Below, piece after piece: positions 31,405 to 42,734 of a stretch of DNA of 58,071 nucleotides (within the stretch, counting starts at the first letter, position 1; the number at the start of each line of letters is the position of its first letter). Source of the DNA: Eubacteriales bacterium (lineage in GTDB: Bacteria; Bacillota; Clostridia; Saccharofermentanales; UBA5734); assembly GCA_028684955.1 (NCBI GenBank), contig JAQUEY010000004.1:1-58071 (forward strand). Direction: 5' to 3'. The notes under the pieces were generated by a model. It was not told the DNA's origin. It did no database searches and worked only from the letters and a program-made list of their open reading frames with translations. The translations under genes and the position numbers were made by a program.

Positions 31405-31581
31405 TCAGAATCTGTTGTCCATGCCACCCTGCTGACGTCTGCTGTTCTTGCGGGCCTTGCGGCAGTCCGGGCAACGAACGGGTTCGTTCTCAAAGCCCTT
31501 CTCTTTGTAGAATGCCTGTTCACCTTCGGTGAACGCGAATTCGACTCCACAGTCTTTGCATGTTAAGATTTTGTCTGGCAT
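31405..31581 (-). CDS. Small zinc-ribbon protein (zf-trcl type)
   Basis: A 58-residue protein with two CxxC pairs: 'TCKDCGVEFAFTEGEQAFY' and 'RCPDCRKARK', the pattern of the trcl zinc-ribbon family (PF13451) found in Firmicutes. The tail is basic and Gln/Gly rich. I chose ATG 31581 because GGGAGG lies about 10 bp upstream. The in-frame TTG at 31599 would start within the ribosome-binding site. The function of the family is unknown; nucleic-acid binding is plausible. Confidence 0.85.
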   Translation of the reverse strand: MPDKILTCKDCGVEFAFTEGEQAFYKEKGFENEPVRCPDCRKARKNSRRQQGGMDNRF

Positions 31582-31710
31582 GTCGGAAAAACCTCCCAAT
31601 TATTCTCGGATCAAGAAAGTGACAGTGGCTTTTTCTAAGAAATCAGGAGGTCAGGACCTACCCATTCTGTCCGGCTCAGGCTGTGAACAAACTTTATCCG
31701 TTGTTCGGAT

Positions 31711-31740
31711 CATAGCATACATGTTATAATAGTTTCAAGT
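31711..31740 (+). promoter_or_regulatory. Promoter for the DRTGG/HATPase/hydrogenase operon
   Basis: TTGTTC (31711-31716), 18 bp spacer, extended -10 TGTTATAAT with a perfect TATAAT at 31735-31740, 96 bp upstream of the first gene. The 230-bp gap to the zinc-ribbon gene holds no other gene. Confidence 0.7.
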
Positions 31741-31835
31741 GTGTTTAGACAAACTGTTGGACACATTGCTGGAAAATCGCCTTTAATCTGTGCAAGATCA
31801 ACCTATTCTTAGAACTACCTCGCAAGGAGTCCGCT

Positions 31836-32186
31836 ATGAAACTGAGTGAATGTGTCGACGTCATCTCTGCCAATGTCCTGGTCACGGGTGAAGACATGGA
31901 CCTGGATGTCCATGTCGCCTGTGGGGCTGACCTGATGAGTGACGTCATGGCTTTTTCCTGCTCGACCAACCAGATGATGCTGACAGGTCTGGTCAATCCG
32001 CAAACCATCCGGACTGCTGAGATGATGGATGTCAAAGTGGTCGTTTTCGTTCGCGGCAAAGTGCCAGACCGAGGCATGCTCGACCTGGCCCAGGAGAAGG
32101 GCATTTGTGTCTTGTCGACGCCACTGCCGATGTTTTCTGCCTGTGGCATCTTGTACCAGAACGGTGTCAAGGGCAAGGGGGAGTAG
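31836..32186 (+). CDS. DRTGG-domain protein 1
   Basis: A 116-residue single-domain protein with the DRTGG fold, a domain also found next to CBS domains and in phosphotransacetylases and regulatory proteins. Hydrophobic strands alternate with short acidic segments ('VLVTGEDMDLDVHVACGADLM'-like pattern, residues 14-34; 'VVVFVRGKVPDRGMLDLAQ'). AAGGAG lies 6 bp before ATG 31836. It is the first gene of a six-gene operon with a hydrogenase-like protein; similar DRTGG-ATPase-hydrogenase sets occur in Clostridia. Function inferred only from context. Confidence 0.75.
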   Translation: MKLSECVDVISANVLVTGEDMDLDVHVACGADLMSDVMAFSCSTNQMMLTGLVNPQTIRTAEMMDVKVVVFVRGKVPDRGMLDLAQEKGICVLSTPLPMFSACGILYQNGVKGKGE

Positions 32187-32615
32187 ATGATCGAACCGGT
32201 CAAACTCGAATACAAGATCCGCGGCTCTGATTTCATCAACGCCGGTGAGGCTTCCAGCGGCACCAAGAAGGCCCTCAACCGGCTTGGTGTGTCCCCGGCA
32301 GCTGTCAAGAGGGCTGCCATTGCCATGTACGAGGCTGAGATCAATGCCGTGATTCATGCAGATGGTGGAGAAGCAGAGGTATTCATCTATTCAGACCATG
32401 TGATTATCCGGATCATCGACCAAGGTCCGGGCATTCCTGACGTCAGCCTGGCCATGCAGGAAGGCTGGTCGACAGCCCCTGACATTGCACGCGAAATGGG
32501 TTTTGGCGCTGGCATGGGCTTGCCCAATATCAAAAAGCATTCGGACGATATGTCCATCGAAACGGAGATCGGCAAAGGCACCACCGTCACGATCACCGTC
32601 CGTTTCCAAGTCTAA
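32187..32615 (+). CDS. RsbW-like HATPase (anti-sigma/serine kinase type) 1
   Basis: A 142-residue GHKL ATPase domain protein. N-box: 'AMYEAEINAVIHADGG'; G1: 'IIDQGPGIPD'; G2: 'EMGFGAGMGLPNIKKH'; then 'KGTTVTITVRF'. Lacking a His-phosphorylation domain, it resembles anti-sigma-factor kinases such as RsbW or SpoIIAB, not sensor kinases. It starts directly after the DRTGG stop codon (AAGGGGGAG ahead) and is followed 11 bp later by the hydrogenase-like gene, so translation is coupled. Partner protein unknown. Confidence 0.85.
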   Translation: MIEPVKLEYKIRGSDFINAGEASSGTKKALNRLGVSPAAVKRAAIAMYEAEINAVIHADGGEAEVFIYSDHVIIRIIDQGPGIPDVSLAMQEGWSTAPDIAREMGFGAGMGLPNIKKHSDDMSIETEIGKGTTVTITVRFQV

Positions 32616-32626
32616 AGGGAATTCTC

Positions 32627-33988
32627 ATGGCTAAACTCCATTCTGTGCGGCTGAACGAAGACAAATGTGTGGGCTGCACAAACTGCATCAAGAAATGTCC
32701 AACCGAAGCGATCCGGGTTCGTGACGGCAAGGCAAGGATTGCCGAGGAGCGCTGCATCGATTGTGGCGAATGCATCAAAGTGTGTCCCCATCATGCCAAG
32801 AGTGCTGAGATGGATACCCTGGATGCTCTGAAACCTTACCGTTACACGATTGCCCTGGCTGCTCCGTCGCTCTATGCCCAGTTCGGGACCCCGGCGACAC
32901 GCCCCATGGTTCTGGCTGCCCTGCTCAATATCGGGTTCGATGATGTCTACGAAGTCGCAATCGGAGCGGAAGTGGTCACCAAGGGGACCTGCGATTACCT
33001 GCCCCTGGCCCGATCGTCTTCCAGGCTACCTCTGATATCCTCTGCCTGTCCGGCTGTTGTCCGGGTGATCCAGGAAAAATATCCCGGCCTGATTGACAAC
33101 CTGGTTCCATTTGATTCTCCGATGGAGGTGACTGCAGAACTGGCCCGGCGCGATGCCCTGGCCAGGACCAACCTCAAACCACAGGAAATCGGCATCTTTT
33201 TCATCAGCCCCTGTCCGGCCAAGCGGACCGCCGTGACCAATCCGATCGGCAATCGCCTGACCCAGGTGGACGGCGTCCTGGCTATTGCCGAAGTCTACCC
33301 CCAGATCCTGGCCAAACTCGAGAAAATGAACCCGGACCAGGTGGTGGAATTCGAACAGCGGATCCTGGCTGATGCCACTGGCGTCGGCTGGGGTGCCAGC
33401 GGCGGTGAAGCCATGGGTCTCCAGACCGAAAAATACCTGGTGGTGGATGGCATCCATAATGTGATCGATATCCTCGAAGAGATCGAGAACGAGCGTCTGC
33501 GTGACATCGAATTCATTGAGGCCAACTCTTGCATGGGTGGCTGTATTGGCGGACCTCTGACGGTTGCCAACCGTTTTTCTGCCAAATCACGCATGAATCG
33601 CTACATCCAGGAAGCGCTAGTTTTTGAAGCAGAACACCAGGACTCTGTCTACAAACCGGACCGGGATGTGATCCGGCCCTGGACCGAAATGCCGCAGGCC
33701 AACAACGCCCTGACCTTGGATCCGGATATTTTCAAGGCCCTGGAAAAATACGAGCAGATGGAGAAAATCACCCACCACTTGCCAGGCCTCGATTGTGGAG
33801 CCTGTGGGGCGCCTGATTGTGCTGCTCTGGCAGAAGACATCGTACGCGGTCTGGCAGTTGAATCGGACTGCATTTTCAAACTCAAGGAACGGATCCGCTC
33901 GGTGGCCGCCCAGATGAGCGAACTGGAATTTGAAATGAACAGGCATACCAAACCAGCAGAAGGGGAACAAGAACATGGCCACACTTGA
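32627..33988 (+). CDS. Putative sensory [FeFe]-hydrogenase (group C/D type)
   Basis: A 453-residue iron-sulfur protein. Two [4Fe-4S] ferredoxin sites (Cys14/17/20/24 and Cys43/46/49/53), then an H-cluster domain with the three ligand motifs in altered form: 'SSACPAVV' (Cys141; the proton-relay Cys of catalytic enzymes is Ala140), 'ISPCPAKR' (Cys196) and 'NSCMGGCIGG' (Cys302, Cys306). A C-terminal [4Fe-4S] domain has Cys390/393/398/415. No PAS domain. Catalytic enzymes have 'TSCCPGW', 'MPCxxKK' and 'MxCxGGC', so these changes point to a sensory type rather than bulk H2 turnover. Start ATG 32627 with AAAGGGA upstream. Confidence 0.82.
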   Translation: MAKLHSVRLNEDKCVGCTNCIKKCPTEAIRVRDGKARIAEERCIDCGECIKVCPHHAKSAEMDTLDALKPYRYTIALAAPSLYAQFGTPATRPMVLAALLNIGFDDVYEVAIGAEVVTKGTCDYLPLARSSSRLPLISSACPAVVRVIQEKYPGLIDNLVPFDSPMEVTAELARRDALARTNLKPQEIGIFFISPCPAKRTAVTNPIGNRLTQVDGVLAIAEVYPQILAKLEKMNPDQVVEFEQRILADATGVGWGASGGEAMGLQTEKYLVVDGIHNVIDILEEIENERLRDIEFIEANSCMGGCIGGPLTVANRFSAKSRMNRYIQEALVFEAEHQDSVYKPDRDVIRPWTEMPQANNALTLDPDIFKALEKYEQMEKITHHLPGLDCGACGAPDCAALAEDIVRGLAVESDCIFKLKERIRSVAAQMSELEFEMNRHTKPAEGEQEHGHT

Positions 33989-34319
33989 TCAGGTGCGAGA
34001 AGTCCTGGGAGCTCAGATCCTGGTGGGCAACGATCTGGACCAGCGCCCAGTCGCCGGCGGCTATGCCTGTGACATGCTCAGCTGGGTGATGTCCCATGCT
34101 CAGCCGACGGATGTCTGGATGACGATTCTGAACAGCATCAATGTGATTGCCGTGGCAGTGCTGACCGACTGTGCCTGTGTCTTGCTCACAGAAGGTGTGG
34201 AACTGCCTCCCGATGTGGCCGCCCGGGCCCAGGACAAAGGTGTGGTGGTCCTTGGCACCCAAGCCTCGACATACGAGGCAAGTGCACGGCTGCATGCGTT
34301 TCTGAACCAGCACCCGTGA
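33975..34319 (+). CDS. DRTGG-domain protein 2
   Basis: A 114-residue DRTGG-domain protein, paralogous in fold to the first gene of this operon ('ILVGNDLDQRPVAGGYACDMLSWVM', spanning residues 16-40; 'NVIAVAVLTDCACVLLTEGVELP'). AGAAGGGGAA lies 5 bp before ATG 33975; it overlaps the end of the hydrogenase-like gene by 14 bp. Its stop overlaps the next start by 4 bp. Two DRTGG proteins in one operon suggest a heteromeric switch, but that is inference. Confidence 0.75.
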   Translation: MATLDQVREVLGAQILVGNDLDQRPVAGGYACDMLSWVMSHAQPTDVWMTILNSINVIAVAVLTDCACVLLTEGVELPPDVAARAQDKGVVVLGTQASTYEASARLHAFLNQHP

Positions 34320-35056
34320 TTGCCCACTGTGATTTTCATATCCACTCTGCCTTGTCGCCGTGTTCTGATGATGACATGTCACCAGGTCTGATTGTTGGAC
34401 TGGCCAAATTGGCCGGGCTTGATTTCATTGCGATCACGGATCATCAGTCTTGTGGCAACTGTGCAGCCGCCATGGCCATTGCGCAAGCTTATGAGGGACC
34501 GGTCGTTGTGCCAGGCATGGAGATCGAGTCGAGCGAGGAAATCCACCTGCTCTGCCTGTTTCCGGATTTGCAGGCCGCCAAAGAGATGGAAGCATTGGTG
34601 CAGCAGGCAATGCTGCCTCTGAAGAATCGGCCGGAAATTTTCGGCGAGCAGTTGCTGTTCAATGAAGAGGATGAAGCAACTGGATGCGAATGGCGCCTGC
34701 TGATGCAAGCCTGCCAGCTGTCCTGTGATGAAATTGCCCGCCAGGTGCTGGCACGAGGCGGGGTCTGCATTCCGGCCCATCTGGACCGGGAGGCCAACAG
34801 CATGCTGCAAACCCTCGGTGCTGTCCCGCCGGATTTTCCCACCGATTGGATCGAATTGTCCCAACGGGCTGACCTTGACCAGTTTTTCCGGAATCATCCG
34901 GACTTGGTCCGCTACCATGTCCTGATCGATTCGGATGCCCATCACCTGGTCCAGATCGATGAGCCAGGCTGGCCGATTGATGTACAGCCCTGGTCCGATC
35001 CTGCCGAGGCCCGGTTACAGGTGCTTTCTGCCTTGCGACCTCAATTCAGGCAATGA
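34316..35056 (+). CDS. PHP-domain metal-dependent phosphoesterase
   Basis: A 246-residue PHP protein. Metal motifs: 'HCDFHIHSALSPCSDDD', 'AITDHQSCGNC', 'VPGMEIESSEEIHLL' and 'DSDAHHLVQ'; 'IPAHLDR' adds a further His/Asp. The GTG at 34316 overlaps the previous stop (GTGA). Family members hydrolyse phosphodiesters or monophosphates; a PHP protein is a recurrent partner of DRTGG and hydrogenase genes in Clostridia. Substrate unknown. Confidence 0.85.
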   Translation: MIAHCDFHIHSALSPCSDDDMSPGLIVGLAKLAGLDFIAITDHQSCGNCAAAMAIAQAYEGPVVVPGMEIESSEEIHLLCLFPDLQAAKEMEALVQQAMLPLKNRPEIFGEQLLFNEEDEATGCEWRLLMQACQLSCDEIARQVLARGGVCIPAHLDREANSMLQTLGAVPPDFPTDWIELSQRADLDQFFRNHPDLVRYHVLIDSDAHHLVQIDEPGWPIDVQPWSDPAEARLQVLSALRPQFRQ

Positions 35057-35062
35057 TATAAT
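35033..35062 (+). promoter_or_regulatory. Internal promoter before the second HATPase gene
   Basis: TTGCGA (35033-35038), 18 bp spacer, extended -10 TGATATAAT with TATAAT at 35057-35062. It overlaps the PHP stop codon and would allow separate transcription of the last gene. Confidence 0.55.
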
Positions 35063-35093
35063 ATTTTCCAGTTTCACGCTGATTGGAGAACTT

Positions 35094-35660
35094 ATGCGCG
35101 ATCTTTCGCTCCACCTGATGGACATCATCCAGAATTCCGTCAAAGCGCGGGCGACTGCGATCGAGATTGAGATTGACGCCAGGCCGCATACAGACCAGCT
35201 CGTCCTGACTGTCCGGGACAATGGCTGTGGCATGCCGCCGGACATGGTGGCCAACGTGCAGGATCCTTTTGTAACAACCAGGACAACACGCTCGGTTGGA
35301 CTCGGTATTTCTTTGTTCAAGGAACTGTGCGAATTGACCGGAGGCCACCTGGAGATCGATTCCAGAGAAGGGGTCGGGACCGGTCTGGTGGCCACTTTGG
35401 GGTTGACCAGCATTGACCGCCTGCCATTGGGAGATCTGGGTGATACATTCTATATCCTGCTGTCCGCTGATCCTGGTCTGGACTATTCGCTCAAACTGAC
35501 CGCCCCGGACAGGACCTTCGAGCTGGACATGACTGAAATCAGGGCAGAGATCCCTGATTTGCCTGTTGATGACCCAGCAGTCCTGAACTGGATTCGGGCG
35601 TACATCCAGGAGAACCAGTCCGCAGTTTTCAGTGGGGTGCTCGGCGAAATCGAAAGCTGA
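35094..35660 (+). CDS. HATPase-domain protein 2 (sensor-kinase-like ATPase)
   Basis: A 188-residue GHKL ATPase. N-box 'LMDIIQNSVKARATAIEI', G1 'VRDNGCGMPPDM', F-box/G2 region 'DPFVTTRTTRSVGLGISLFKEL' spanning 62-83, and 'GVGTGLVATLGL'. The N-terminal His-acceptor domain is absent, and a C-terminal 65-residue extension follows. The start is ATG 35094 with TTGGAGAA 5 bp upstream; earlier in-frame starts lie inside the PHP gene. It differs from the first HATPase in having a histidine-kinase-like rather than RsbW-like arrangement. Confidence 0.8.
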   Translation: MRDLSLHLMDIIQNSVKARATAIEIEIDARPHTDQLVLTVRDNGCGMPPDMVANVQDPFVTTRTTRSVGLGISLFKELCELTGGHLEIDSREGVGTGLVATLGLTSIDRLPLGDLGDTFYILLSADPGLDYSLKLTAPDRTFELDMTEIRAEIPDLPVDDPAVLNWIRAYIQENQSAVFSGVLGEIES

Positions 35661-35703
35661 TCTGGCAGGACTTGATATCCGGCCAATGACCGTCAATGAG
35701 TGA

Positions 35704-35740
35704 CCTTGCGGACTCGACAACGGCTCCGTGAGGTTTTTTT
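35704..35740 (+). terminator. Terminator of the hydrogenase-sensor operon
   Basis: A 9-bp stem (CCTTGCGGA / TCCGTGAGG, two G-U pairs) with a 12-nt loop, followed by seven T. It isolates the operon from the next gene. Confidence 0.75.
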
Positions 35741-35753
35741 CAAAGGAGAAGAC

Positions 35754-36500
35754 ATGAACCTGATTCTGACGCTAGAGGCCTTGAAAGTTTACAAAGTCAA
35801 ACATGAACGACTGGTCCAGCTCGCTTTTGTCGTTTTGTATCTGGTCAACATCGCCCCTTATGTGCTGCCTGTGGGCGACATGGATTTTTCCGGTTTCCTG
35901 TACGCCACGGAAACATTCATCCAGGACCCTTCAAAGCCACTGCCCCTGCTGACTTCCGGCAATCTGCTCTCGCTTGGCCTGATTGCAGTCACCGGACTGG
36001 TCGATCTTCTGGCTACGATGGGTTATTCGGTTTTAATGGCCGGCGAACATGCCGGATTTTCTGGCAAAACCATGCTGCTTCGCCTCGCCAAGGGGCTTCC
36101 CGCGCTGTTGTTGACCTTGCTTTTGCTCCTGGTTCCGGTCATACTGTCGTCATTTCTTTTCATGATTCCCGTCCTGCTTCTGGTTACTAATCTCTACGTC
36201 CTGCCTGTCCTGATCCTCTCCGAAAACCGCAAACTGACTGAAGCACTGCAGGCAGCGATCCAGCTGGTCAAGGGTTTCAAAATGATGATCTTGCTGCAGA
36301 TGTTTTTCCTTTCAATCATCCTCTCCCTGCCGGAAAGCCTGGTCCTTGGTTTTATGCCACAGACCCTTCTAACCTCCATCCTCGTCCCCCAGTTTTTCGT
36401 AGTGCTCCAAGTATTTGCCCAAGGTCGCCTTTTAGGCATGTTCTATCTTTTTCTTGTAAAGAAAGTTCCGGTTGTGATACCATCGAAGCCACAACTTTGA
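35754..36500 (+). CDS. Polytopic membrane protein, unknown function
   Basis: A 248-residue membrane protein I do not assign to a family. About six hydrophobic segments can be seen (roughly residues 22-40, 70-100, 110-165 as two helices, 180-205 and 212-235), separated by short polar loops. The N-terminus is basic and cytoplasmic. Start ATG 35754 with AAAGGAG 6 bp upstream, which excludes an earlier in-frame ATG at 35700. It follows a terminator and precedes the Lrp regulator by 40 bp, so it may be the first gene of that operon. Confidence 0.7.
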   Translation: MNLILTLEALKVYKVKHERLVQLAFVVLYLVNIAPYVLPVGDMDFSGFLYATETFIQDPSKPLPLLTSGNLLSLGLIAVTGLVDLLATMGYSVLMAGEHAGFSGKTMLLRLAKGLPALLLTLLLLLVPVILSSFLFMIPVLLLVTNLYVLPVLILSENRKLTEALQAAIQLVKGFKMMILLQMFFLSIILSLPESLVLGFMPQTLLTSILVPQFFVVLQVFAQGRLLGMFYLFLVKKVPVVIPSKPQL

Positions 36501-36540
36501 GCCTTTGGCCACGGTTGAACATCAAAAAATGGAGGTCGTC

Positions 36541-37029: not shown

Positions 37030-38204
37030 ATGTAGACTCCATGCTGTCTGACAAGGTCAAGGCCATTCCGCCATCAGCCATCCGGCGGTTTTTCGACTTG
37101 GCCAATGAGATGAAAGGGCAAGTGATCTCCCTCTCCATCGGCGAACCAGATTTTGTCACGCCCTGGGCGATCCGCGAGGCCGGGATCTATTCCCTGGAAA
37201 CAGGCAATACCCATTATTCGCCGAACCAAGGTTTCATCGAATTGCGCGAAGCCATCAGCCATTACATGAAGCGCCGTTTCCACATCCAGTATGCGCCCAA
37301 ATCTCAGGTCGTTGTCACAGTGGGTGGCAGTGAAGCCATCGACATCGCCGTGCGCGCGGTCGTCAACCCGGGTGATGAGGTCATTATCCCTGAGCCGTGT
37401 TTTGTGGCCTACAAGAATTGCGTGCTCATGGCGGGAGGTGTGCCTGTGACCATCCCGCTCCGGGCTGAAGACAATTTCGTCCTCAAGCCGGACCAGCTCC
37501 GGGCAGCTCTTTCGCCGAAGACGAAGATGATCATGCTGGGCTACCCCAACAATCCCACCGGTGCAGTCATGAGCCGGGAGCAGCTGCAGGACATCGTGGC
37601 CGTGATCCGCGATTTGCCAGTTCTGGTTTTATCTGATGAGCTCTACGCTGAGCTGACCTACGAACCAGCCAGCCATTGCTCGATCGCGGAGCTGGATGGC
37701 ATGGCCGAACGGACGATCCTGATCGGCGGTTTCTCCAAGGCGTTTGCCATGACTGGCTGGCGCATCGGTTTTGCTTGCGGACCGGAGTCAATCTTAGCTG
37801 CGATGAACAAGATCCACCAGTACGTCATCATGAGCTCACCGACGACCGCCCAGGATGCGGCCATCGAAGCCCTGCGCCACAGCCATGAACACATCACGCC
37901 GATGCGAGAGGAATACAACCGCCGCCGCCGCCTGGTCGTTCATGCCTGCCGTGAGATGGGTCTTGGCTGCTTTGAACCCCTGGGGGCCTTTTATGTCTTC
38001 CCCGATATCCGCAGCACGGGCCTTTCATCGAACGAATTTTGCGAACGTTTCCTCCAGGAAGAAAAAGTTGCCATCGTTCCCGGTCATGCCTTTGGTGAAT
38101 GTGGTGAAGGATTTGTCCGGATCAGCTACGCGTCTTCCCTGGAAAACATCCGTGAAGCCATGGTGCGCCTGAAACGATTTGTAGAAAGGAATTCCCCGAA
38201 ATGA
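37026..38204 (+). CDS. Class I/II pyridoxal-phosphate aminotransferase
   Basis: A 392-residue fold-I aminotransferase (aspartate aminotransferase superfamily). The PLP Lys is Lys238 in 'GGFSKAFAMTGWRIGF'; 'GYPNNPTGAVMS' and 'SDELYAEL' are the Asn and Asp/Tyr cofactor motifs; a C-terminal 'FVRISYASS' carries the carboxylate-binding Arg. It overlaps both neighbours by 4 bp, so it is translated together with the Lrp regulator and prfB. Substrate pair unknown; such Lrp-linked members are often aspartate- or aromatic-type. Confidence 0.9.
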   Translation: MNVDSMLSDKVKAIPPSAIRRFFDLANEMKGQVISLSIGEPDFVTPWAIREAGIYSLETGNTHYSPNQGFIELREAISHYMKRRFHIQYAPKSQVVVTVGGSEAIDIAVRAVVNPGDEVIIPEPCFVAYKNCVLMAGGVPVTIPLRAEDNFVLKPDQLRAALSPKTKMIMLGYPNNPTGAVMSREQLQDIVAVIRDLPVLVLSDELYAELTYEPASHCSIAELDGMAERTILIGGFSKAFAMTGWRIGFACGPESILAAMNKIHQYVIMSSPTTAQDAAIEALRHSHEHITPMREEYNRRRRLVVHACREMGLGCFEPLGAFYVFPDIRSTGLSSNEFCERFLQEEKVAIVPGHAFGECGEGFVRISYASSLENIREAMVRLKRFVERNSPK

Positions 38205-39310
38205 TTGAATACGACCAGTACCGTCAAGAACTGGGCCAGTACGTGGAAAAGCTGGACCAGTTGCGGCTGGCCTTGCACATTGACCATGTCCGCGACGAAA
38301 TTGCAGAGCTTGAGGCCCGGGCTCAGGAGCCAGGCTTCTGGGATGATGTCGAAAGAGCCCAGAAAATCCAGACCAAGGTCAAGCACCTGCAGAAGAAAGT
38401 CGACCGTTTCCAAGCCCTGGTCCAGGAATATGAAGACCTGGAGGTTCTGCGTGAGCTTGGTGAAGAAGCTGAAGACAAGGAAATCGCCCAGGAGATTGCT
38501 GAAAATCTCAAGAATCTGCAGCACGACTTTGAACAGATGCGACTTGAGACCCTGTTCACTGGCGAATACGATGGCAGCAATGCCATTGTCACTTTGCACG
38601 CAGGTGCAGGCGGGACCGAAGCCCAGGACTGGAATGAAATGCTGTACCGCATGTACACCCGCTGGGCTGAAGCGCACGATTTTGAAATCAAGCTGCTTGA
38701 TATCCTCGATGGGGATGAGGCGGGCCTGAAAAGTGTCTCCTTCATGCTGATCGGGGACAATGCCTACGGGTACATGAAATCCGAAATGGGTGTCCATCGC
38801 CTGGTCCGGATTTCCCCCTTCGATTCGTCTGGACGTCGCCATACGTCTTTTGCCTCGGTTGAAGTCATGCCGGAGCTGGATGACTCGATCAAGATCGACA
38901 TCCGGTCCGACGACCTCAAGGTTGACACCTTTCGTTCATCTGGTGCCGGTGGCCAGCACGTCAACAAGACCGAGTCCGCGATCCGCATCACCCATGTCCC
39001 GACCGGTGTGGTTGTTTCCTGCCAGACCGAACGCTCCCAGGTCCAGAACCGGGAGACTGCGATGGGCATGTTGAAAGCTAAATTATTCGCCATGGCCCGT
39101 GCGGCCCACATGGACAAGATCGAAGACTTGAAGGGCAACCAGATGGCCATCGCCTGGGGCAGCCAGATCCGCTCCTATGTGTTCTGCCCCTACACCATGG
39201 TCAAGGACCTGCGCACCGGATACGAAGTTGTGGATGTGGACAGTGTCATGGATGGCAATCTGGACGGGTTCATCAATGCCTATCTGTCCGGTCAGAAAGC
39301 AAGCAAATGA
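38201..39310 (+). CDS. prfB: Peptide chain release factor 2, without programmed frameshift
   Basis: A 369-residue release factor recognising UGA and UAA. The stop-codon-recognition tripeptide is SPF (205-207) and the peptidyl-hydrolysis motif is GGQ (250-252). In many bacteria prfB has an in-frame UGA near codon 26 and a +1 programmed frameshift; here the reading frame runs straight through the equivalent region ('LRLALHIDHV'), so this autoregulation is absent. ATG 38201 overlaps the aminotransferase stop by 4 bp. The larE gene starts 4 bp before its end. Confidence 0.95.
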   Translation: MIEYDQYRQELGQYVEKLDQLRLALHIDHVRDEIAELEARAQEPGFWDDVERAQKIQTKVKHLQKKVDRFQALVQEYEDLEVLRELGEEAEDKEIAQEIAENLKNLQHDFEQMRLETLFTGEYDGSNAIVTLHAGAGGTEAQDWNEMLYRMYTRWAEAHDFEIKLLDILDGDEAGLKSVSFMLIGDNAYGYMKSEMGVHRLVRISPFDSSGRRHTSFASVEVMPELDDSIKIDIRSDDLKVDTFRSSGAGGQHVNKTESAIRITHVPTGVVVSCQTERSQVQNRETAMGMLKAKLFAMARAAHMDKIEDLKGNQMAIAWGSQIRSYVFCPYTMVKDLRTGYEVVDVDSVMDGNLDGFINAYLSGQKASK

Positions 39311-40164
39311 GTGACCATGCCTTGAGAAGCCCGGAAGAGCTACTGGCAGACCTGGCGGATGTCATCTTGCCCATGGGTAAAATCGCCGTTGCCAGCTCAG
39401 GAGGGGTGGACAGCACGGTTCTGCTTGTAGCGGCCGCACAGATCCTGGGTCCGGATAATGTCCTGGCTGTGACGGCACTGGCCCCCATGGTTCCAGCAGA
39501 TGACCAGGCAGACGCCGGGCGTGTCGCCAGTCTGGCCCAGGTCAGGCAGTTGATTGCCCGTCTGCCGGAGTCGATACTTGATCTGGCGCCCTTTGCCGAG
39601 AATCCGCCCGACCGCTGTTATCACTGCAAGAAAATCATTTTCAACGCCTTGCAGGCCTTGGCTCGCGGTGCCGGGTTCACTGTCCTGTGTGACGGAACCA
39701 ACCGTGACGATCTCAAAGACTACAGGCCCGGCCTTCAAGCGTTGCAGGAAATGAAAGTCTTGAGCCCGCTGGCGGAGGCTGGTTTTTCCAAAGCGGACGT
39801 GCGCGCCCTGGCAGCCCGGATCTGTCCGGATTTTGCCGAAAAGCCAGCCATGGCTTGCCTGGCCACACGCATTCCGACCCATACGCCCGTCACTCTGGCC
39901 GCAATGGCTCGGATCGACAAAGCCGAAACCTTGCTGCGCCAGAAAGGACTGGGCCAGGTTCGTGTGCGTGACCACGCAGGACTGGCCCGGGTTGAGCTCG
40001 AGCCAGCTTTTTTGGAGAAAGGGCTTGCCCCGGACTGGATTGTGCTGGTGCGCGACTGCCTCCTGGAGGCAGGATTTGCATTTGCCACCCTGGACCTTCA
40101 GGGTTACCGCACCGGTAGCATGAATCCAGCGGCAAAACAGACCAGACAGGAAGACTCTCAATGA
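39307..40164 (+). CDS. larE: ATP-dependent sacrificial sulfur transferase LarE
   Basis: A 285-residue protein of nickel-pincer-nucleotide (NPN) cofactor synthesis. The PP-loop is 'ASSGGVDSTVLL' (29-40). The sacrificial Cys is Cys184 in 'KPAMACLATRIP', which loses its sulfur to the pyridinium substrate. 'RCYHCKK' gives a further CxxC. Overlaps prfB by 4 bp and larB by 4 bp. LarE normally acts after LarB and before LarC. Confidence 0.94.
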   Translation: MSDHALRSPEELLADLADVILPMGKIAVASSGGVDSTVLLVAAAQILGPDNVLAVTALAPMVPADDQADAGRVASLAQVRQLIARLPESILDLAPFAENPPDRCYHCKKIIFNALQALARGAGFTVLCDGTNRDDLKDYRPGLQALQEMKVLSPLAEAGFSKADVRALAARICPDFAEKPAMACLATRIPTHTPVTLAAMARIDKAETLLRQKGLGQVRVRDHAGLARVELEPAFLEKGLAPDWIVLVRDCLLEAGFAFATLDLQGYRTGSMNPAAKQTRQEDSQ

Positions 40165-40877
40165 CAGAGCAATTTGAAGATTTGGGCTTTGCCAAGGTAG
40201 ACCATTCGCGCAAAATGAGGAATGGGTTTGCCGAGGTGGTTTTTTGCGAGGGCAAGACCCCTGAGCAAACCGCTCAGATAACAACCAGCATCCTCGACCA
40301 TGGTGACAATCTCCTGGCCACCCGGGCCGATCTGGAACATTTTGAAGCCATCCAGGCAGTCGCGCCGGATGCTGCCTATTCAGCCCGGGCCCGGGTGATC
40401 ACAGTCCGCCGGTATCCAGTTGCCTGCATTGGAGAGGTCGCGGTCGTTTCGGCCGGGACAGCAGACCAGCCGGTGGCTGAAGAAGCTGCCCTGACTGCCG
40501 AAGCGCTGGGCTGCCAGGTCACACGCTTCTCGGATGTCGGTGTGGCTGGCCTGCACCGTCTGCTGGCAGTCATAGATGACATCCGGAAAGCCGATGTGAT
40601 CATTGCTGTCGCCGGCATGGAGGGAGCTCTGGTCAGTGTTCTGGGCGGTCTGGTCGACAAACCGGTGCTGGCAGTCCCGTCAGGGATCGGGTATGGGGCC
40701 AATTTCGGCGGCGTGACCACTTTGCTGGCCATGGTCAATTCCTGCGCCAGTGGGGTTGCGGTCCACAACATCGGCAATGGCTTTGGTGCCGGATTCATGG
40801 CTGCGACCATCTGCCGTCAGATCGACCAACGCGTCCGCACCGCACTGGCTGCCCATGACGCTGAAAGGTATACATGA
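40161..40877 (+). CDS. larB: NPN cofactor biosynthesis carboxylase/hydrolase LarB
   Basis: A 238-residue LarB. The C-terminal PurE-like (AIR carboxylase) region reads 'VVSAGTADQPVAEEAALTAE' and 'AVPSGIGYGANFGGVTTL'; the N-terminal part is LarB-specific. It carboxylates nicotinate adenine dinucleotide and hydrolyses it, giving the pyridinium-3,5-dicarboxylate mononucleotide. Overlaps larE and larC by 4 bp each. Confidence 0.94.
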   Translation: MTEQFEDLGFAKVDHSRKMRNGFAEVVFCEGKTPEQTAQITTSILDHGDNLLATRADLEHFEAIQAVAPDAAYSARARVITVRRYPVACIGEVAVVSAGTADQPVAEEAALTAEALGCQVTRFSDVGVAGLHRLLAVIDDIRKADVIIAVAGMEGALVSVLGGLVDKPVLAVPSGIGYGANFGGVTTLLAMVNSCASGVAVHNIGNGFGAGFMAATICRQIDQRVRTALAAHDAERYT

Positions 40878-42181
40878 ACATGAAACAGAAAATCCTCTAC
40901 CTTGATTGTTTTTCCGGTATCAGTGGCGACATGTTCCTGGGCTCCCTGATTGATGCAGGTGTACCCTTGTCTGTTATTGAGACGGGCCTTTCGGCACTCG
41001 GCCTGGCAGGCGAATACCACCTCCATGCCGAAAAGACCAGTAAAAGCGGCATCCAGGGCACCTCTTTTTCGGTGCACCTGACTGACCACCACCACGATGA
41101 CCATCACCACCACGATGACCATCACCATCATTCACATGGCCGGACCTATGCGGATATCCGGCATTTGATTGAAACTTCCCAACTGCCTGGTCCAGTACGC
41201 CAGATGGCGCTCTCGGTCTTTCTTGAAATCGGCCAGGCCGAGGCGGCTGTGCACGGAGTACCTTTGGACCAGGTCCATTTCCACGAAGTTGGTGCCATCG
41301 ATTCTATCGTTGACATCGTGGGAGCTGCCATTGCGCTTGACTACCTCAAGATAGACCGGATCCAGTCATCTCCGCTCCATGATGGGTCCGGAAGTATTCT
41401 GTGCCAGCATGGCGCCATGCCGGTTCCCGTCCCAGCCGTCATGAAGATGCTGGAAAACACCGACATCCCCTTTGTGACTGGCACCAGTGACACCGAACTG
41501 GTCACCCCGACCGGGTTTTCCCTGGTCAAGACCCTGGTGTCTACGTTTGGATCCATGCCCCAGATGAAGCGTCTGGCGATTGGCTATGGGTTTGGCCAGC
41601 GGGAAATCGGCCGTCTCAATGCCCTGCGGATCATTCTGGGTGAAACGAACGAATCTGCTGCACAAGCGACCATGACTCAGCCAGAACAGGGGAGAGAGGG
41701 TCAACAGCCTGCCTCGTCTCTGCCGGGCTTTGATCCAGCTGAAATGGATCGTGTGGTCTTATTGTCCTGCCATATTGACAACACGACCGCCGAGGAACTG
41801 GGGTATCTGAGCGAACAGATGCACCAGATGAGTGTGCTCGATGTTGCTTTCAGCCCGCTCCAGATGAAAAAGAATCGACCCGGGCATTTATTGACAGTCC
41901 TTGTGCCAGAAAACCTTGAAAAAGATGCTGTCCGGCTCCTGTTCTCTCATGCAGGAACCATCGGCATCCGGCGCGAATGGATCGACCGCCATGTCATGAC
42001 TCGCAGCACCCGTTCCATTCAGGTCCTGGGCCAGACCGTCCGGATCAAGACGGTGCAGTGGCAGGACATCACACGTTCTTACCCGGAATATGATGACACC
42101 GCAGATCTGGCACGGCATAACCAGATCAGTCTTGAAGCAGCCAAAGCGCTGATCAGAGAAGCCATGAACCGTCTGATTTGA
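40874..42181 (+). CDS. larC: Nickel insertion protein LarC, single reading frame
   Basis: A 435-residue CTP-dependent cyclometallase that inserts nickel into the pincer nucleotide. N-terminus 'YLDCFSGISGDMFLGSLID' is the family signature. A His/Asp-rich loop (residues 72-88, 'HHHDDHHHHDDHHHHSH') probably binds nickel. In Lactiplantibacillus plantarum LarC is made from two frames by frameshifting; here it is one continuous frame. No larA (lactate racemase) is present in the window, so the target enzyme is elsewhere or different. Confidence 0.93.
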   Translation: MNMKQKILYLDCFSGISGDMFLGSLIDAGVPLSVIETGLSALGLAGEYHLHAEKTSKSGIQGTSFSVHLTDHHHDDHHHHDDHHHHSHGRTYADIRHLIETSQLPGPVRQMALSVFLEIGQAEAAVHGVPLDQVHFHEVGAIDSIVDIVGAAIALDYLKIDRIQSSPLHDGSGSILCQHGAMPVPVPAVMKMLENTDIPFVTGTSDTELVTPTGFSLVKTLVSTFGSMPQMKRLAIGYGFGQREIGRLNALRIILGETNESAAQATMTQPEQGREGQQPASSLPGFDPAEMDRVVLLSCHIDNTTAEELGYLSEQMHQMSVLDVAFSPLQMKKNRPGHLLTVLVPENLEKDAVRLLFSHAGTIGIRREWIDRHVMTRSTRSIQVLGQTVRIKTVQWQDITRSYPEYDDTADLARHNQISLEAAKALIREAMNRLI

Positions 42182-42233
42182 CGAACCAAGACCTCACTTG
42201 TTAAACTTGAATGCATTTGCAGGAGGAAATACA

Positions 42234-42734
42234 ATGTCCAGGAACGTGCTCGTCGTCATGGGATCTGATTCAGACTTTCCTGTCATGGAAGCCTGTTTCA
42301 ATACTTTACGCGAATTCGGAGTCTCTTTTGAAGCGACCGTCTGCTCAGCCCACCGTACCCCGGACCGGGCCGCTGAACTTGCCAAATCCGCTGCTGCAAA
42401 AGGCTTTGGAGTCATCATTGCTGCTGCAGGCCTGGCGGCTCATCTGCCTGGGGTCCTGGCAGCCATGACCACACTGCCTGTAATCGGGGTCCCGGTCCAC
42501 GGTGGCGCCCTGAATGGTCTCGATGCTTTGTACGCCATTGTCCAGATGCCCAGTGGCATACCGGTTGCCACGGTTGCCATCGATGGGGCAGCCAATGCGG
42601 CCATTCTGGCTGTCCAGATGCTCAGCCTCGGTGATCCTGCGCTGATGGATAAATTAGCTGATCACAAAATCCGCCTGGCAAGTGCAGTGGCCCAGCGTGA
42701 CCAGCGTCTCCAGGAGAAGCTGAAAAGCCTGTGA
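42234..42734 (+). CDS. purE: N5-carboxyaminoimidazole ribonucleotide mutase
   Basis: A 166-residue PurE. Motifs 'VVMGSDSDFPVMEACFNTL' and 'CSAHRTPD' bind the substrate and place the catalytic His; 'AAAGLAAHLPGVLAAMT' completes the active site. Start ATG 42234 with AGGAGG 7 bp upstream. No purK lies next to it, so it may be a class using N5-CAIR made elsewhere, or CO2 directly. First gene of a five-gene purine cluster; the gap from larC is 52 bp. Confidence 0.95.
   Translation: MSRNVLVVMGSDSDFPVMEACFNTLREFGVSFEATVCSAHRTPDRAAELAKSAAAKGFGVIIAAAGLAAHLPGVLAAMTTLPVIGVPVHGGALNGLDALYAIVQMPSGIPVATVAIDGAANAAILAVQMLSLGDPALMDKLADHKIRLASAVAQRDQRLQEKLKSL

Follow-up and report, generated by a model that had tools for sequence, protein, structure and literature searches.

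A broadly conserved group D [FeFe]-hydrogenase cassette found apart from hydABC in a bacterium of the Saccharofermentanales

How group D [FeFe]-hydrogenases might signal without a PAS domain is a question that was left open in the work that characterised the first of them (PMC8163306). Such an enzyme is encoded in a cassette of six open reading frames (ORFs) at 31836–35660, all on the + strand, in a 58,071 nt stretch of DNA (the window; contig JAQUEY010000004.1 of assembly GCA_028684955.1) from a Eubacteriales bacterium (GTDB lineage Clostridia; Saccharofermentanales; UBA5734). In order, genes 1 to 6 encode a DRTGG-like protein (DRTGG-a), a SpoIIAB/RsbW-like GHKL ATPase, the hydrogenase (HydS), a second DRTGG protein (DRTGG-b), a PHP phosphoesterase and a second GHKL ATPase. 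An earlier note on this DNA, made from the sequence alone, had described six genes with overlaps or short gaps, and the ORFs bear this out (successive intergenic gaps of 0, 11, −14, −4 and 37 bp, the last counted from the ATG at 35094). It is well supported that the cassette is of the group D sensory-hydrogenase type, is conserved broadly and stands detached here; the kind of sensor is already known. As to function, we see about an even chance that the cassette is an H2/redox-sensing relay built on HydS, a relay of which we infer every signalling step. In Clostridia of the gut and of digesters, the control of fermentation by H2 has a bearing on methane and biofuel yields.

Group D membership of the hydrogenase

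HydS (gene 3, 453 amino acids, 32627–33988, + strand) consists, according to Pfam, of two N-terminal [4Fe-4S] motifs, an Fe_hyd_lg_C H-cluster domain (H domain) and a C-terminal FeS domain; Pfam found no PAS domain. The H-cluster cysteines are C141, C196, C302 and C306, and Ala140 occupies the site of the proton-relay cysteine (C299 in CpI), just as the earlier note had described. That note had also proposed a phylogeny against groups A to D. In an H-domain tree of 66 proteins HydS falls into the group D clade (27 D rows, support 100/100), and groups A, B and C each form a separate clade; the A, B and C labels were assigned from domain make-up and motifs and the D label via the Thermoanaerobacter orthologue, rather than taken from HydDB. 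HydS thus lies outside the clade of catalytic group A enzymes and lacks their proton-relay cysteine, and it lies outside the group C clade and has no PAS match.

The residues agree with this placement. HydS was aligned with its orthologue from Thermoanaerobacter wiegelii, which is numbered in agreement with the published positions of TamHydS (PMC8163306, PMC10407848, PMC13104023): A140 corresponds to A137, S194 to the M353 site, E261 to E252 and E298 to E289. The C-terminal Cx2Cx4Cx16C cluster (C390/C393/C398/C415) corresponds to C379, C382, C387 and C404 of TamHydS, and D389, D414, K35 and K58 are likewise present, so that all hallmark positions of TamHydS are matched. Three of the H-cluster cysteines are kept in 103 of 103 HydS homologues, the fourth is conserved at a level of at least 90%, and the E252/E289 path is also kept. 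One relative (L020), whose translation was spurious, was left out of one of the alignments. The window hydrogenase belongs to the group D (M2e, TamHydS-type) [FeFe]-hydrogenases. It resembles TamHydS of Thermoanaerobacter mathranii in domain order, H-cluster pocket and C-terminal cluster residues, and it shares the clade of the Thermoanaerobacter orthologue of that enzyme. Group C enzymes (TmHydS, HfsB of Thermoanaerobacterium, HydS of Ruminococcus albus) have in common with it the two N-terminal [4Fe-4S] clusters, an H domain that often lacks the proton-relay cysteine, and a C-terminal [4Fe-4S] cluster; unlike the window HydS they carry a PAS domain and have a PP2C phosphatase as neighbour. 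The genome of the window also encodes a group C enzyme, which is described with contig C172 below.

Co-inheritance of gene 6 with HydS and separation from hydABC

In all Thermoanaerobacter, the bifurcating hydrogenase is reported to be preceded by a group D hydrogenase and a gene of the histidine-kinase-like type (PMC3608648, which cites earlier work on clostridia). In T. wiegelii, whose HydS is surrounded by the same five-gene module, in Acetivibrio and in many gut Clostridia we found the order 1-2-HydS-4-PHP-hydC-gene 6-small gene-hydB-hydA. Genes 1, 2, 4 and 5 flank HydS in 62, 62, 62 and 61, respectively, of the 64 loci from named genomes that have enough flanking sequence, and a HydA of the bifurcating type is encoded within about 10 kb of HydS in 34 of 45 long-flank loci elsewhere. 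The neighbourhood is therefore not new in kind, and the bifurcating hydrogenase HydABC is usually encoded downstream of the cassette. The earlier note, to which the exact partner logic appeared undescribed, needs changing on this point. An open-access literature search yielded no paper that links DRTGG proteins to these enzymes.

What is new is the separation of the cassette from HydABC in this order. HydS is present in 18 of 23 genomes of the window's family, and in this family and a second family of the order genes 1 to 6 occur together, as the earlier note had wished to see checked, and the flanks examined hold no further hydrogenase. In 16 hydABC loci of relatives (one cut at a contig end) we found hydC, sometimes a small 2Fe-2S gene, hydB and hydA, without gene 6; these loci are on other contigs, or more than 230 kb from the cassette on the same contig. 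In the genome of the window a probable hydABC is split between contigs C246 (hydC and hydB) and C172 (hydA), which may be joined as one locus. On C172 (837–6483), hydA is followed by genes for a 2Fe-2S protein, a group C hydrogenase with a PAS domain and a phosphatase of the SpoIIE type. The term "self-contained" in the earlier note is thus apt for this cassette as a special feature, whereas in most species hydABC follows. The module of Thermoanaerobacter stands ahead of hydABC, with gene 6 placed between hydC and hydD-B-A, while here gene 6 comes directly after the PHP gene. Horizontal transfer of the cassette as the principal explanation was rejected, since the homoserine dehydrogenase gene upstream and the membrane-protein and Lrp genes downstream keep their order in both families.

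Two observations were made on other hydrogenases. In most enzymes of the HydABC type that adjoin the cassette (e.g., L070:15757–17499), the L1 motif of HydA is TSCSPGW, where Ser takes the place of the second Cys in TSCCP; the HydA of this genome and its genus relatives has TSCCPAW. Contig C234 of the window's genome (7685–11266) encodes a 1194-residue fusion of a 2Fe-2S domain, a GltD-like pyridine nucleotide oxidoreductase and a group A hydrogenase, and the same type occurs in genus relatives.

The detached cassette can be regarded as a natural experiment on the partners of HydS: genes that stay with HydS while HydABC is elsewhere are likely signalling partners. Gene 6 (188 amino acids, 35094–35660, + strand), a GHKL ATPase with a C-terminal extension, is such a gene. 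In T. wiegelii it has the same place and type as hydE of the Acetobacterium woodii hydABCDE operon, in the order hydC-hydE-hydD-hydB-hydA (PMC3315566), and we call it HydE-like on the grounds of position and family rather than by comparison with the A. woodii sequence; in the window it stands outside the hydABC operon. HydS and gene 6 occur in the identical 35 of 142 genomes of the order, and a HydA of the bifurcating type in 119 of them. Among 293 genomes of the class, HydS is present in 142, gene 6 in 151 and both in 139 (phi 0.90; raw counts compiled by hand from tables and not corrected for shared ancestry), compared to phi values of 0.41 for HydS and HydA and 0.45 for gene 6 and HydA. No genome (0/293) has gene 6 with neither HydS nor HydA. 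Twelve genomes have gene 6 and HydA but no HydS, so gene 6 can persist without HydS. In nine genomes, that of the window included, HydS and gene 6 are present without a bifurcating-type HydA at the cut-off used. Gene 6 follows HydS, not HydA, although it lies inside the hydABC operon in most species. As a candidate subunit of hydABC it was rejected on this co-occurrence.

The earlier note had inferred an output formed by RsbW-like and histidine-kinase-like ATPases and the PHP enzyme. In gene 6, by Pfam, only HATPase_c-type families match (residues 7–104), with no HisKA/DHp phosphoacceptor domain, and the predicted secondary structure has no DHp hairpin before the ATPase domain. The N, G1 and G2 motifs and a TTRTTR.VGLG lid are kept. 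When residues 1–166 of the AlphaFold model (pLDDT 91.7) were compared with known structures, the ATPases MutL, PMS2, TopoVI-B and GyrB ranked first (Z 11–13), while the best Foldseek E-values were those of kinase CA domains; the latter are not among the 50 matches listed in the Z-ranked comparison, which excludes nothing. The modelled fold thus appears more like that of MutL/GyrB-type ATPases than that of a two-component kinase, although the Foldseek E-values favour kinase CA domains. With no HisKA/DHp domain and this fold ranking, a histidine-kinase-like output is doubtful.

MutL/GyrB-type ATPases work by ATP-driven conformational change, and the cassette may also be read as an ATP-driven factor for assembly, repair or activity tuning that acts directly on HydABC, with no regulatory H2 sensor. 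The usual position of the cassette just upstream of or around hydABC would fit this, as would A. woodii HydE, which the active enzyme does not contain and which "may be involved in assembly or signalling" (PMC3315566). We consider this reading unlikely, though worth keeping in mind. A bifurcating-type HydA is found without gene 6 in 79 genomes of the class and without HydS in 88, so neither is needed by HydABC, and the nine genomes mentioned above have HydS and gene 6 with no such HydA at the cut-off.

Partner proteins and the proposed relay

DRTGG-b (gene 4, 114 amino acids, 33975–34319, + strand) matches the Pfam family DRTGG (PF07085) with 41.7 bits, above the cut-off of 25.2. DRTGG-a (gene 1, 116 amino acids, 31836–32186, + strand) reaches 18.2 bits, below that cut-off; its S35 is conserved in 100/100, C103 in 98/100 and C29 in 92/100 homologues, and a PDB search gave no usable match (best E 0.034, Mn-dependent pyrophosphatase). 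In one relative from another genus of the same family (G012), HydS and DRTGG-b are fused in a single frame of 545 amino acids (HydS 1–430, DRTGG-b 432–544). This natural fusion, a single case, supports contact between the two proteins, and DRTGG-b is probably the direct contact of HydS.

The protein encoded by gene 2 (142 amino acids, 32187–32615, + strand) has a HATPase domain with intact N, G1, G2 and G3 boxes that are conserved across about 100 homologues, and its best PDB match is SpoIIAB. It shares with the SpoIIAB/RsbW anti-sigma kinases the GHKL kinase fold, the boxes and a small adjacent partner gene, but this partner is a DRTGG-like protein, and Pfam found neither a sigma factor nor a STAS antagonist among the six cassette genes.

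Gene 5 (246 amino acids, 34316–35056, + strand) is a PHP phosphoesterase: the Pfam match of 21.9 bits is below the cut-off of 26.4, yet the fold is plain and so are the metal ligands. The ligands H8, H10, H43, E69, H77, H155, D207 and H209 are invariant in 34 homologues, and the AlphaFold model (pLDDT 96.3) is nearest to the PHP domain of EndoQ (Z 20.9), followed by RNase AM (Z 16.4) and nucleotide phosphatases. Gene 5 has no nucleic-acid-binding domain, unlike EndoQ and RNase AM, and a shared fold alone does not prove a substrate. A PHP protein tyrosine phosphatase of the YwqE/CpsB type was rejected (Z about 8 versus 20.9 for EndoQ). The two ATPases and the PHP enzyme all have conserved active sites.

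In the relay that we propose, HydS would bind H2 or turn it over slowly at an H-cluster whose proton path is damped, by comparison with TamHydS. Its redox state would reach the C-terminal [4Fe-4S] cluster, and the domain that carries this cluster could hand the signal to DRTGG-b, a contact that the fusion supports. The signal would then set the state of the two ATP-dependent GHKL proteins and the PHP enzyme. On the model of SpoIIAB and its small partner, the gene 2 protein may act on the adjacent DRTGG-a, gene 6 may serve as an ATP-driven switch, and the PHP enzyme probably cleaves a nucleotide-type phosphoester. The most likely end point would be control of the activity or expression of the bifurcating hydrogenase, or of linked electron flow.

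Sensing by group D was proposed by Land et al. 2020 (PMC8163306), and TamHydS turns over H2 slowly (PMC8163306, PMC10407848) and reversibly (PMC8163306). Genetics on group C supports a regulatory role of the PAS-type relatives HfsB and R. albus HydS (PMC11837493, PMC8924675), which makes sensing plausible for group D, though it is no test of group D.

Several points weigh against such a relay. None of the six genes codes for a DNA-binding protein, a sigma factor, a STAS protein or a response regulator, and the cassette therefore shows no output. We know of no experiment that demonstrates signalling by a group D enzyme. The co-occurrence of HydS and gene 6 was counted without correction for shared ancestry. 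A further point concerns HydF, which is required for maturation of the H-cluster. HydF (TIGR03918) is encoded in the genome of the window (C15:3216–4394) and is present in its genus, but of the 35 genomes of the order that carry the module, 14 have no HydF match above the family cut-off (hand count; one of them has a fragment). This shortfall is consistent in several genera with near-complete assemblies, and HydS and the examined HydA of genomes without such a match (e.g., G001, G003, G005, G012, G021, G022) retain their cluster cysteines. Either a mature H-cluster is less strictly needed than supposed, or parts of the assemblies are missing; loss, divergence or assembly gaps could each account for the shortfall.

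The missing HydF in several module-bearing genera, the loss of the group A proton-relay cysteine and the extra C-terminal cluster would suit a HydS that has become a redox (or O2/CO) sensor no longer needing H2, with the accessory clusters instead of the H-cluster carrying the signal. We regard this as rather improbable, given the near-complete conservation of the H-cluster cysteines, the retained E252/E289 path, which matters for H2 turnover by TamHydS (PMC10407848), and the HydF of this genome. That HydS is a slow catalytic hydrogenase in a minor electron path with bystander neighbours, as the reversible, slow turnover by TamHydS might suggest (PMC8163306), is very improbable in view of its near-invariant linkage to four signalling-type genes, its tight co-inheritance with gene 6 and its fusion to DRTGG-b.

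For an H2/redox-sensing relay on HydS, the detached cassette puts gene 6 (HydE) on the sensor side beside DRTGG-b, a partner assignment that is sharper than in the literature searched. We tentatively extend it, with more doubt than confidence, to a group D relay in which the DRTGG proteins, the two GHKL ATPases and the PHP enzyme replace the PAS domain, histidine kinase and PP2C phosphatase, gene 6 (HydE), long counted with the operon of the bifurcating hydrogenase, is a component of the sensor, and signalling goes through a nucleotide or another phosphoester rather than a phosphorelay.

Transcription signals and neighbouring genes

The promoter of the cassette (31702–31730, + strand) consists of TTGTTC, a 17 bp spacer and TATAAT, with TGn before the −10 element. 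A consensus scan did not list it, the −35 being too weak, and the extended −10 is conserved in 5/5 genus members compared. The earlier note had placed a single promoter at 31711–31740, a range that holds the −10 and leaves out the weak −35. A possible second promoter before gene 6 (35033–35062, + strand; TTGCGA-18-TATAAT with TG) largely persists in three relatives. Promoter-like sites are expected by chance in about this number (2.7 per region), so the second site could be due to chance; with this site present, "single promoter" is better read as "main promoter". The strong terminator that had been noted at 35704–35740 stood up well: the stem-loop with a T7 tail (35704–35741, + strand; −19.7 kcal/mol, z −3.6) retains its pairing in two sister species.

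Divergent from the cassette, a small treble-clef zinc-finger protein (zf_Tbcl) is encoded at 31405–31599 on the − strand. Downstream, a gene for a protein without Pfam match (35754–36497) and an Lrp/AsnC regulator gene (at 36505) are conserved beside the cassette in both families of the order. A tRNA-Arg called by ARAGORN inside an aminotransferase gene (37794–37885, − strand) has no Rfam support and is probably false. Further downstream (39307–42734) lie probable genes for a nickel-pincer cofactor, LarB-like (40161) and LarC (40874), which adjoin a PurE-like gene (42198).

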